A stretch of 37,506 nt of DNA. Origin: Candidatus Nitrosopumilus sp. GTDB taxonomy: Archaea; Thermoproteota; Nitrososphaeria; Nitrososphaerales; Nitrosopumilaceae. Shown here piece after piece: positions 1,499 to 5,187 of this stretch. The position numbers and the translations under genes are program-made. Location: NCBI GenBank assembly GCA_028377625.1, contig JAONKT010000004.1, positions 1 to 37,506 on the forward strand, written 5' to 3'. The notes under the pieces are model-generated. The model had not been told where the DNA came from. It worked only from the letters and a program-made list of their open reading frames with translations, and did no database searches. Position 1 is the first letter of the stretch. Each line of letters starts with the position of its first letter.

Positions 1499-1828
1499 TT
1501 AGATTACCTCTTCACCCTCATTACCTGAACCAATATCTATTGCACGTAACATTTGTGAAATGAAGATTTTACCTCCTCTAGAATTTTTCTTGACTATTTC
1601 AACTGTTTTCTCTTCTTTTGATTCTGGTATTACAACCATTACTCTATATTTATCTGCAAAATGAGGAACAAAAATTTCCATTCCTTTTGAAGAATGGATT
1701 TCAGCTGCGGTCTTTGCACCTCTTCCTCTAACTTTGATAACTGTTAATCCGCCAATTCCTATTTCTTTTAATCCTTCACTAATATTCATTACATCGTTTT
1801 CTGCAAGTATGATTTCAAGTTTTAACAT
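1499..1828 (-). CDS. glnK: Divergent nitrogen-regulatory PII protein (GlnK-like)
   Basis: The length (109 residues) and pattern fit PII: N-terminal strand MLKLEIILAEN, helix, then GGLTVIKVRGRG (26-37), the T-loop (about 37-57), VMVVIP (64-69), a B-loop region and the C-terminal GSGNEGEEVI. PII trimers sense ATP/ADP and 2-oxoglutarate and block Amt channels with their T-loops. Two departures are clear. The T-loop (AKTAAEIHSSKGMEIFVPH) has no tyrosine at the usual modification site. The B-loop reads NSRGGKIF, about three residues shorter than the usual TGxxGDGKIF. Ligand binding may therefore differ. The gene is divergent from amt, with a TATA-like TATTATTT (reverse strand of about 1851-1858) 27 bp upstream of the ATG. 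Confidence 0.8.
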   Translation of the reverse strand: MLKLEIILAENDVMNISEGLKEIGIGGLTVIKVRGRGAKTAAEIHSSKGMEIFVPHFADKYRVMVVIPESKEEKTVEIVKKNSRGGKIFISQMLRAIDIGSGNEGEEVI

Positions 1829-1888: not shown

Positions 1889-1942
1889 TTGTAAATCAAA
1901 TTGGAAAACTGTTAAATGCAAAAACTCGATTTCATTATAATT

Positions 1943-3238
1943 ATGATTGATACTGGAGATACAGCATGGATGTTAATTGCTGGATGTTTAGTATTGTTAA
2001 TGATTCCTGCACTGGGATTATTTGAATCTGGTTTATTGAGAAAGAAAAATGTGGTTTCAATTTTTATGCAAATATTTTTCGGAATGTCATTACTTAGTGT
2101 AATGTGGTTTGTTTTTGGATTTAGTCTCTCTTTTGGTCCTTCTACAACTGGTATCATAGGTAATCTTGATTGGTCATTTTTGAAAGGTATTCCTTGGGAT
2201 GCACCTTTAGAACAATATGCACCTAGTATACCTGGCGTTCTCTTTGTTAAATTCCAATTAATGTTTGCATGTATTACTCCGTTATTACTTACTGGAACAA
2301 TCGCTGAAAGAATGAAATTTAGCTCATTTATTATATTCATATCTGCATGGTCAATGCTAATCTACTATCCAATCGTTCACATGGTCTGGGGTGGTGGATG
2401 GTTAGCACAACTAGGTGTCGTTGACTTTGCTGGTGGTATTGTTATACATACTACTGTTGGAATGGCTGCACTTGCAGCTGCTCTTGTACTTGGAAAAAGA
2501 CGCGGATTTGGTCCAGCAATAAATATTCCACATAGTATTCCTCTTGCTGTATTAGGTTCTTCATTATTATGGCTAGGTTGGTTTGGATTTAATGCCGGTA
2601 GTGCATTAGCATCTGGCGGTGTAGCTGGAAATACCGTTATTGTAACTCACTTAGCTTCTTCAGTTTCCGCTTTAATTTGGGCAGGGTTGTCTTGGATGCG
2701 TACAGGTAAACCATCAATTGTTGCAACCATTAATGGTGCAATTGCTGGACTTGCAGGAATCACACCTGCATCTGGATATGTCAGTGTTGAACATGCATTT
2801 GTTCTTGCAATAGCAATAGGTGTACTATCTTATGGTGGAGTTGTACTAATTCGAGATAAATTAAAAATTGATGATGCACTTGATGTAAGTTCTGTACACG
2901 GCATTGCAGGTATTGTCGGTGCACTTGGAATTGGTATCTTTGCAAGTACTTTGATAAATCCTTCTGGAGTTGATGGATTACTATATGGTAATTATGATCA
3001 AATTTGGATTCAAGGTGTTGGAATTGCAGTAGCTGCTGCAATGGGATTCGGTGGAACCTGGATATTATTACAATTAATTAAACATCTAATTGGAATTCGT
3101 GTTGAACCTGAAGAGGAAGACATTGGTTTAGATATTAGTGAACATGCTGAACAAGCTTACTCTGACGAAGAGGAGTTTAAGTTCACTCCAAATGACTACA
3201 TGCAACCATCTAACAAAGACAAATCAAATAGTTCTTGA
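1943..3238 (+). CDS. amt: Amt-family ammonium transporter
   Basis: This channel passes ammonium into the cell, supplying nitrogen and, in an ammonia oxidiser, possibly substrate. It has about 11 hydrophobic spans. Counting from the longer ATG at 1916, it shows the two pore histidines (H155 in YYPIVHMVWGGG and H328 in VSSVHGIAG), the Asp of VVDFAGG (D170), and the phenylalanines of QLMFACITP (F117) and WFGFNAG (F225). The C-terminal tail is long and acidic, ending in Asn/Ser-rich sequence. The ATG at 1943 (MIDTGDTAW) is preferred over 1916: it removes nine residues that do not fit the family, and GTTAAATG at 1911-1918 is then about 28 bp upstream as a TATA-like box. The divergent PII gene is the expected partner. 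Confidence 0.93.
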   Translation: MIDTGDTAWMLIAGCLVLLMIPALGLFESGLLRKKNVVSIFMQIFFGMSLLSVMWFVFGFSLSFGPSTTGIIGNLDWSFLKGIPWDAPLEQYAPSIPGVLFVKFQLMFACITPLLLTGTIAERMKFSSFIIFISAWSMLIYYPIVHMVWGGGWLAQLGVVDFAGGIVIHTTVGMAALAAALVLGKRRGFGPAINIPHSIPLAVLGSSLLWLGWFGFNAGSALASGGVAGNTVIVTHLASSVSALIWAGLSWMRTGKPSIVATINGAIAGLAGITPASGYVSVEHAFVLAIAIGVLSYGGVVLIRDKLKIDDALDVSSVHGIAGIVGALGIGIFASTLINPSGVDGLLYGNYDQIWIQGVGIAVAAAMGFGGTWILLQLIKHLIGIRVEPEEEDIGLDISEHAEQAYSDEEEFKFTPNDYMQPSNKDKSNSS

Positions 3239-3279: not shown

Positions 3280-3672
3280 ATGGGAATGGCTGAAGAAATA
3301 ATTACAGAACCAAACTATGAAAAACTTTGTTCCAACATCATAAATTCTAGTGAACATATTCGTTTTGCAGGATTTGTAAATGATAAATCCAAAATATTAC
3401 ACAGTTCAGAAAGAGATAACCTTGATCCTCTTTTATCTGACCATGAAATTGGAATGTCCATTCATTACACTTTGGAGAGATGGAGAAAGGCACAAAATTT
3501 TACATTTCGTTTAGGTAAGGAGAGGTTAACTTTTACTGAATATGATCAGGTAACATTAGTTACAATTCCGTTTAAGGGAAAATTATTACTTGTAAGTACT
3601 GAACCACGAATACATTATGATCCAATTATAGAAAAAATTAATTCTATCTTAACTGACTGGGAGAAATTATAG
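3280..3672 (+). CDS. Small thaumarchaeal protein, DUF6659-like
   Basis: This 130-residue soluble protein starts with a helix and contains a strand-rich core (FAGFVNDKSKILHSSER, then TYxQVTLVTIPFKGKLLLVSTEP). The pattern resembles the profilin- or roadblock-like small domain proteins common in thaumarchaea and grouped, from memory, as DUF6659. Their function is not known. A start at 3286 (second ATG) is equally possible; a stop lies in frame just before 3280. It sits 41 bp after amt and 1 bp before the reductase gene, so the three are probably co-transcribed. Link to nitrogen control is inference from this position. Confidence 0.6.
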   Translation: MGMAEEIITEPNYEKLCSNIINSSEHIRFAGFVNDKSKILHSSERDNLDPLLSDHEIGMSIHYTLERWRKAQNFTFRLGKERLTFTEYDQVTLVTIPFKGKLLLVSTEPRIHYDPIIEKINSILTDWEKL

Positions 3673-3673
3673 C

Positions 3674-4495
3674 GTGGAAAATGGCACCATTTCCTATACT
3701 CAATTATTAAGAGAGGATTTAGGAATTTTTCGTGTTACTCCAGATGATGGGGTTCCTGATTTTAAAGCTGGCCAATTTTTGACGCTTGGATTACCTCTTG
3801 AAAGTAAAATTGTTAATCGTGCATATTCTATTGCGTCCTCTCCTGAGAATAAGAAATTTTTTGAATTTGTGATTAGATGGGTTAGAAGGCCTCTTCCTGG
3901 AAGATTAACCAGTTTGTTGTTTAACGCAAAAGAAGGTGACAAAATTAGTTGGGCAAAACCTGCTGGTAATCTTACAATTAATGATACATTAGCAAATGGT
4001 GAAAAAGATTCAAGAAGAATTGTTTGTATTGGTGGTGGAACTGGTTTAGCACCTTTTGTGAGTTTTGCACAACATCTTCACGATACTAATGATAAAAGAG
4101 AGATTGTTGTTTTACACGGTGCAAGCTACGTTGATGAATTAAGTTACAAACAACTCTTGACTGATTTAGAAAATGAAAGTATTGACAAAGGTAAAGATAA
4201 ATGGAATTTCAAATATAGAGCAGCAATTAGTAGACCTGAAGAATGGACTAATCGTGCATGGCATGGTCATAAGGGTAGAATTGAACAATTTTTAAGATCT
4301 AATGATGCTGGGAAGTCCCCTCTTGAAGAATTGGTTGGTGAGAAAATTACTGCAGAAAATACCATGTTTTACGTTTGTGGATGGCAAGGAACTATTGATG
4401 GAACTATGGATTATTTGAAAAATAAAAATTTTGTAACTGAAAAAAATAAACGTGAAGATGGAAGTTATGAAGTTAAATTCGAATCCTATGGATAA
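3674..4495 (+). CDS. Ferredoxin/flavodoxin-NADP+ reductase-like flavoprotein
   Basis: The 273-residue protein has the FAD-binding RAYSIASSP motif (about residues 49-57) and then an NAD(P)-binding domain with GGGTGLAPFVSF. It ends with YVCGWQGTIDGTMDYL, the usual C-terminal nucleotide-site region. This is the FNR/Fpr layout, so it probably moves electrons between NAD(P)H and ferredoxin or another small carrier in the cytoplasm. The start is GTG at 3674, one base after the stop of the preceding gene; no ATG is available near it. A DUF6659-like gene and amt lie upstream. Reduced ferredoxin feeds nitrite and glutamate metabolism in many organisms, which would fit this block, but the partner cannot be read from the sequence. 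Confidence 0.85.
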   Translation: MENGTISYTQLLREDLGIFRVTPDDGVPDFKAGQFLTLGLPLESKIVNRAYSIASSPENKKFFEFVIRWVRRPLPGRLTSLLFNAKEGDKISWAKPAGNLTINDTLANGEKDSRRIVCIGGGTGLAPFVSFAQHLHDTNDKREIVVLHGASYVDELSYKQLLTDLENESIDKGKDKWNFKYRAAISRPEEWTNRAWHGHKGRIEQFLRSNDAGKSPLEELVGEKITAENTMFYVCGWQGTIDGTMDYLKNKNFVTEKNKREDGSYEVKFESYG

Positions 4496-4511
4496 TTAAA
4501 AATGTATTTTT

Positions 4512-4536
4512 ATATCATTTGATAATCAAATGATAT
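4512..4536. promoter_or_regulatory. Perfect 12+12 bp palindrome, probable operator
   Basis: The arms ATATCATTTGAT (4512-4523) and ATCAAATGATAT (4525-4536) are exact reverse complements around a single A. A one-base loop makes an RNA hairpin unlikely and a dimeric protein site likely. It lies about 45 bp upstream of the TATA-like box of the PII-extension gene. Its left part, with the base before it (4511-4528), recurs between the PII gene and amt at 1871-1888. A looser similar element (TATATCAT then ATTATCATT) follows at 4554-4574. Confidence 0.6.
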
Positions 4537-4578
4537 GCATTTAGTAACAAATTATATCATTATGAAATTATCATTAGC

Positions 4579-4608: not shown

Positions 4609-5187
4609 TTGAAAAAGATTGAGGCTATTATTAATCGAAAAAATTACCCCTCAATTCGTGAAAAATTAGATGCTTTAGGCATAGATATTATTGATAAACG
4701 AAATTTAGAAGATAGTAGATTTACCAGTCAGTCAAAAGGATCTAGAGTTGGCGGATCTGCAGTAAGATCTACAATGCTTGCAAAAATCGAATTAGCAATG
4801 TCTGATAAAGTTGCACGAGAAGTAGTTGATATAATTTCTAAAAATTCAGGACTTCCAAAATCTATTCCAAGTAAAATTTTTGTCTTTGACATGCAAGAAA
4901 CAATTGATCTCAATACTCTAAAAGGTGAATCTGAAACAGAAGCAGAATCTGAAGAAGAAGTTTCAGTTACTCCTAGATTTGTTACTAAACGTAATAGACT
5001 AGTCCCACTTCAAAAAAGAACATTATACAAATTAGAACAATATTATGATAAACATAGTGAAGTTCTAGAATCTGATTATAGAATTCGTTCGTTTAGTGAT
5101 TTTGTTAATTACTGCATAATGAAATATTTACCAACACTTGATAAACAATTAAAGAACCAAACAATTCTTTATGAAGATGTTTTATAA
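4609..5187 (+). CDS. PII-like domain with a C-terminal ribbon-helix-helix-like extension
   Basis: Residues 1-101 follow the PII fold: MKKIEAIINRKNY, a helix, a strand, a loop with GSRVGGSAVRST, the strand MLAKIELAM, a helix (DKVAREVVDIISKNSG), then SKIFVFDMQETIDL. The last stretch corresponds to the PII GKIFVxxVEEAIRI region. An acidic linker (about 106-118) leads to a basic 70-residue tail. In the tail, RLVPLQKRTLYKLEQYY and RSFSDFVNYCIMKYLPTLD resemble the strand-helix and second helix of a ribbon-helix-helix DNA-binding domain. That assignment is by eye. The start is TTG at 4609, giving the MKKIEAII start usual in PII; no ATG fits. The gene follows the reductase gene after 113 bp containing the palindrome. 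It could be a nitrogen-responsive regulator. Confidence 0.72.
   Translation: MKKIEAIINRKNYPSIREKLDALGIDIIDKRNLEDSRFTSQSKGSRVGGSAVRSTMLAKIELAMSDKVAREVVDIISKNSGLPKSIPSKIFVFDMQETIDLNTLKGESETEAESEEEVSVTPRFVTKRNRLVPLQKRTLYKLEQYYDKHSEVLESDYRIRSFSDFVNYCIMKYLPTLDKQLKNQTILYEDVL

Follow-up and report, generated by a model that had tools for sequence, protein, structure and literature searches.

Which protein adjusts ammonium uptake to nitrogen status in the abundant ammonia-oxidising archaea is the question raised by a gene in the stretch of 37,506 nucleotides analysed here (the window), which encodes a PII-type signal protein extended by a possible ribbon-helix-helix (RHH) DNA-binding domain and stands close to glnK and amt1. 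According to a passage in PMC11334935, Amt1 transcripts of Nitrosopumilus maritimus have been reported to fall at low ammonia, and a literature search for an Amt1 regulator found no named one; the fusion protein is a good candidate for this missing nitrogen regulator. The union of a PII domain with a DNA-binding domain would furthermore, if true, be unusual for one of the best-studied families of signal proteins, and a specific protein, a DNA site and genomes in which gains, losses and site expansions have occurred naturally turn the matter into a directly testable question.

A PII protein with a C-terminal extension

The open reading frame occupies positions 4609-5187 of the forward strand, as originally predicted, and encodes 192 residues from a TTG start, a codon that in close relatives is TTG, ATG or GTG at an unchanged position. 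Its first 101 residues (4609-4911) had been assigned to the PII family by eye, and this is borne out by a match to PF00543 that spans positions 1-98 of 102 and exceeds the gathering score (E=1.4e-6), as well as by Foldseek, in which the AlphaFold2 model retrieves PII crystal structures of the GlnZ/GlnK type (GlnZ on top, E=2.6e-7). The expected acidic linker is likewise present, spanning residues 102-126 (4912-4986), and is both weakly constrained and modelled at low confidence (pLDDT <50 at residues 106-132). It leads into the RHH-like domain of residues 127-183 (4987-5157), in which the segment KRNRLVPLQ is followed by helix A and helix B, SFSDFVNYCIMKYL. In three pairwise comparisons dN/dS lay at 0.07-0.13 in the PII domain, at 0.19-0.71 in the linker and at 0.00-0.035 in the tail, which makes the tail the part of the protein under the strongest constraint; for a fourth pair no tail value was obtained on account of saturated synonymous sites. 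Since the dN/dS values are accompanied by orthologues of the whole fusion in about 100 of the 400 sampled genomes of the class, we conclude that the frame is a real coding sequence.

While the PII fold is kept, the residues that serve ligands in canonical family members are for the most part lost. Across 39 orthologues of the fusion protein five residues (K60, E62, K90, I91 and F92) never vary, but a leucine stands in place of K58 in all 39, T29, G35, R38, Q39, G87 and R101 are likewise substituted in every one, and D88 and R103 are substituted in 38, each being retained in one. The positions T29, Q39, K58, G87, D88, K90, R101 and R103 have roles in nucleotide or 2-oxoglutarate binding in GlnK (PMC8395244). 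Within the nucleotide-binding set (T29, G87, D88, K90, R101, R103) K90 alone is kept, the rest being replaced in 38-39 of 39 sequences, and among the 2-oxoglutarate and T-loop positions neither Q39 nor Y51 is found in any orthologue (0/39 each). The stand-alone GlnK of the window is likewise unusual at several of these positions. The notion of a self-contained ATP/2-oxoglutarate sensor, which formed part of the original prediction, therefore fares poorly: judged from the residues lost, direct sensing of 2-oxoglutarate by the fusion protein is doubtful, and with the canonical pocket eroded it is more likely that the signal would arrive through the neighbouring stand-alone GlnK or another ligand.

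Is the C-terminal domain a ribbon-helix-helix domain?

The structural model of the tail consists of two helices, both at high confidence, that follow a short extended segment; the strand is absent from this monomer model, and in RHH proteins the strand forms only in the dimer. A Foldseek search with the tail model gave no match, and the prediction of an RHH fold for this part is hence not clearly borne out, the model showing the two helices and the search no structural relative. Sequence searches gave a similar picture, in that a Pfam scan of the fusion protein returned P-II alone and no RHH family over threshold, that the tail found nothing significant in Pfam, NCBIfam, PHROGs or PDB sequences, and that its direct hhalign score against RHH profiles was equalled by 27 of 150 column shuffles. 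The link to RHH proteins instead runs through intermediate families. By hhalign the tail is related to stand-alone tail ORFs at 98.9% and to an intermediate archaeal family at 97.7%, and these two sets, which have one sequence in common, each beat all 150 column-shuffled controls when aligned to an RHH_1/NikR/CopG profile. That profile was built from Pfam-recognised RHH proteins of these archaea together with NikR and CopG. In the alignments of the two sets to it, strand, helix A and helix B follow one another in this order and some eight residues are inserted in the helix A region, and the stand-alone ORFs, for example L090 (MPAKGFKTVTLREKVIEEIRDYYEKN..SFSDFLNFILDQYL), show the same strand-helix-helix order; Pfam RHH_5 and RHH_1 were matched by stand-alone tail relatives below threshold only. 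In sum the tail is a separate domain that most probably belongs with the RHH proteins by way of intermediate families rather than by direct match. Since these families provide the link while neither a significant direct match nor a Foldseek hit was obtained, the RHH assignment is likely and not proven.

Two further groups of proteins were noticed. Four uncharacterised proteins of about 128-139 residues (L107-L110, MPKPGFKTVTLSE...) have an RHH-like N-terminal part and a cysteine-containing C-terminal part and reach no Pfam family over threshold, and three others (L106, L111 and L112) carry a segment YNTITIRSD..W similar to the tail, two of them having been scanned with no Pfam family over threshold.

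Distribution and gene neighbourhood

The list of fusion-positive genomes (n=100) also counts matches truncated at the end of a contig, as well as six f2 genomes that entered by tail match, and named carriers include Nitrosopumilus sp. Nsub, Nitrosopumilus sp. PfA and Archaeon HR04. A profile of the tail alone retrieved the fusion-positive set again, together with a stand-alone ORF of 72-75 residues in G272 and G171 and distant RHH-like ORFs. One genome, G111, holds a copy split by nature into PII and tail ORFs that overlap by a few bases (L092, 391-988) and in addition a second, divergent fused copy (L091). G081 has a 96-codon fragment of the gene, and the Amt found there is of the longer type only. 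The viral contigs searched held no relative.

In most genomes the fusion gene is followed by glnK and then by amt, the latter two being divergent. In the window the glnK-type gene (1499-1828, reverse strand; 109 residues) is identified by synteny and by PF00543 (E=1.8e-14), and the divergent ammonium transporter gene (1916-3238, forward strand) by PF00909 (E=1.3e-112); from its length and missing leader we infer that the transporter is Amt1, and its true start is likely the second methionine (MIDTGDTAW). In group 1.1a ammonia oxidisers PII genes are often found near a low-affinity amt, and Amt1 has been called low-affinity (PMC4836417). In genus g2 the fusion gene adjoins another PII gene and amt and glnK are located elsewhere, and in G137, the other f2 genomes read and Archaeon HR04 it likewise adjoins a PII gene. 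Indeed a PII gene is adjacent at all loci read except L091 of G111, with amt usually near too, and from these loci the constant partner of the fusion gene is the PII gene and not amt.

Between amt1 and the fusion gene lie a gene for a DUF6659 protein (3280-3672, forward), which is a frequent but non-universal neighbour of amt1, and an FAD/NAD-binding ferredoxin-reductase-like gene (3674-4495, forward) found at this place in only some relatives. A DUF6659 gene follows amt1 in several genomes (L003, L094, L095, L238 and L243). On the other side of glnK the reverse strand encodes a small protein with repeated RGTG motifs (1093-1362), and a similar ORF is present at L167 (6576-6848).

A tandem palindromic array as candidate operator

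The palindrome mentioned earlier is present upstream of the fusion gene at 4512-4536 with 12-nucleotide arms, and is the centre of a tandem array at 4509-4539 in which units resembling TGATWATCA begin at 4509, 4520 (exact) and 4531. A second candidate operator lies between glnK and amt at 1869-1898, with an exact unit at 1880-1888 and weaker flanking units, and its place is conserved in relatives. The dominant spacing of the units is 11 bp, with 17 pairs as against 5 for the next spacing. By itself the single 9-bp unit is no rarity, with 3 occurrences in the window against 1.4 expected, but the paired pattern at up to three mismatches matches three times in the 37.5 kb, where 0.45 is expected and 3 of 100 shuffles reach three, and all three matches fall in the glnK-amt and fusion-upstream intergenic regions; the reversed paired pattern has none in the window. 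In the source assembly, which is 59% complete, a search with the clade's variant of the motif at up to three mismatches places three sites in these two regions and a single one outside them. That the motif arises by chance is rejected by the shuffles, the reversed control and the position of the sites.

In relatives the glnK-amt site may be greatly expanded, as in G246, where eleven exact 11-bp units stand head to tail between the two genes (L243, 1568-1686). In most lineages the array precedes amt by about 60-105 bp, which fits activation or repression. Upstream of the fusion gene it is clear only in the window's clade and g9 (L062, L068 and L094) and in some f2 and g6 genomes, is weaker in some others, and in many other genomes was not found there. 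Because of this patchy occurrence, autoregulation would be a local feature and the glnK-amt site the general one.

Co-occurrence of the motif and the fusion gene

At up to one mismatch the paired motif occurs in 61 of the 100 genomes with the fusion gene and in 12 of the 300 without it (Fisher 5e-33, relatedness ignored), and a reversed control pattern in 1 of 400; the association is inflated by shared ancestry, since one family supplies most genomes. The 39 fusion-positive genomes that lack a site at this threshold include G083, whose best amt site has four mismatches. Among the 76 sites with listed positions 68 are at amt, glnK or fusion loci: for 62 of them the fusion gene is no more than 3.5 kb away, and the other six stand at amt or glnK. 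The eight located elsewhere, considered as possible members of a wider regulon, look like background. Of the six, three are in G137 (two separating amt genes that lie in tandem, the third in front of a glnK-type gene) and one each in G003, G028 and G367. In G003, G028 and G137 the fusion gene is unlinked and sites nevertheless remain at amt/glnK; the glnK-type gene of G137 (L158, 4209-4709) is a separate, more canonical one with an exact paired motif upstream. G367 is one of the 12 fusion-negative genomes and has its site between glnK and amt, but the contig begins 287 bp from the glnK ORF, and its fusion gene may therefore be missing from the assembly.

A scoring of the region upstream of amt at 30 loci, by best mismatch count per locus, divides them in the same way. 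At nine loci of fusion-positive genomes (two in G067 and one each in G066, G019, G007, G028, G003, G083 and G137) the best count is 0-4, and at the other 21, which belong to fusion-negative genomes and to G081 with its fragment, it is 5-8. The 21 include nine g8/f3 loci at which amt is 58-74% identical to that of the window and at which the counts are no better than those of shuffles of the same sequence. As a separate observation, a TFB-like gene in G028 is preceded at a distance of about 170 bp by a one-mismatch paired motif (L161, 4445), present either by chance or as a second target.

A proposed mechanism and its alternatives

We regard it as probable that the fusion protein is a PII-paralogue transcription regulator that acts on the tandem units at glnK-amt1 and couples these genes to nitrogen status. 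The PII-fold domain would probably oligomerise and receive the signal, and the RHH-like domain at the C-terminus would be the putative DNA-binding part, placed on palindromic 11-bp units (TGATWATCA plus two) one helical turn apart in the glnK-amt1 interval and, in the window's clade, at a second predicted target upstream of its own gene. In this way the genes for the low-affinity ammonium transporter and for GlnK would be transcribed according to nitrogen status, with a signal that most likely comes from contact with the stand-alone GlnK encoded alongside or from another ligand. In this scheme the fusion with its conservation and synteny, the array of motifs and the joint occurrence of motif and fusion gene are computational findings, and the RHH fold, the binding to DNA, the operator's identity and the route through GlnK are interpretation. 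More tentatively, the fusion protein might be the DNA-binding member of a mixed PII system and lack a ligand pocket of its own, such that the adjacent GlnK would sense nitrogen status and mixed complexes would set binding to the tandem operator; this possible arrangement, if true, would amount to PII-to-DNA signalling that bypasses NtrC, NrpR or any other separate transcription factor.

That the protein itself senses ATP and 2-oxoglutarate by its own PII domain and acts directly on DNA is in agreement with the retained fold and the five invariant residues, but seems unlikely, since most of the residues replaced in 38 or all of the 39 orthologues, among them K58, are ones that in solved structures of GlnK bind nucleotide or 2-oxoglutarate (PMC8395244). 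Of the one-protein nitrogen regulator first envisaged, the PII domain, the separate tail and the association with the palindrome stand, while self-contained sensing is not supported. The motif might alternatively be a real operator used by a different regulator, one inherited together with amt1 and glnK, with the fusion protein acting elsewhere, for example as a modified partner of GlnK. The tail's non-significant direct similarity to RHH leaves some room for this, DNA binding by the fusion protein being itself an inference, but we hold it to be improbable in view of the absence of the motif in fusion-negative relatives with a 58-74% identical amt and of its persistence at amt-glnK where the fusion gene is unlinked. 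It is more improbable still that the tail is a helical element for protein interaction or oligomerisation rather than a DNA-binding domain, a notion that stems from the empty Foldseek search and the strand missing from the monomer model; the profile chain to RHH, the strand-helix-helix order of stand-alone ORFs such as L090 and the association with operator-like DNA all argue against it.

Comparison with known systems

The regulator proposed here shares its PII fold with GlnK and GlnB (PF00543) and its gene is linked to glnK and amt, but it differs from them by the extra linker and C-terminal domain and by the loss of ligand residues in the T-, B- and C-loops. In our literature search, most subscription papers being outside its scope, PII genes near amt were described and neither a PII-DNA-binding fusion nor such an operator was found; the candidate operator array at the glnK-amt and fusion loci is new in this analysis. 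The presumed role resembles that of the archaeal nitrogen repressor NrpR (PF01995), namely nitrogen-dependent control of assimilation genes, but the domains are unrelated. NrpR had been noted as missing from the window, and this extends further, since its domain (NRD, PF01995) was found in 0 of 19 genomes while control methanogens were positive.

The RHH regulators MetJ and omega bind tandem operators of short repeats about one helical turn or less apart, and the short tandem repeats found here would likewise suit cooperative RHH dimers, but the unit is an 11-bp one, TGATWATCA, and the sensor domain differs. By analogy the plan may be that of a NikR-like one-protein regulator with a PII-type core. 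NikR, a nickel regulator, also joins a small ferredoxin-like sensor to an RHH domain in a single protein, but in the fusion protein the domain order is reversed (PII, then tail), PII takes the place of ACT and a role in nickel control is not indicated. NikR-like RHH proteins are in these archaea encoded by separate genes.
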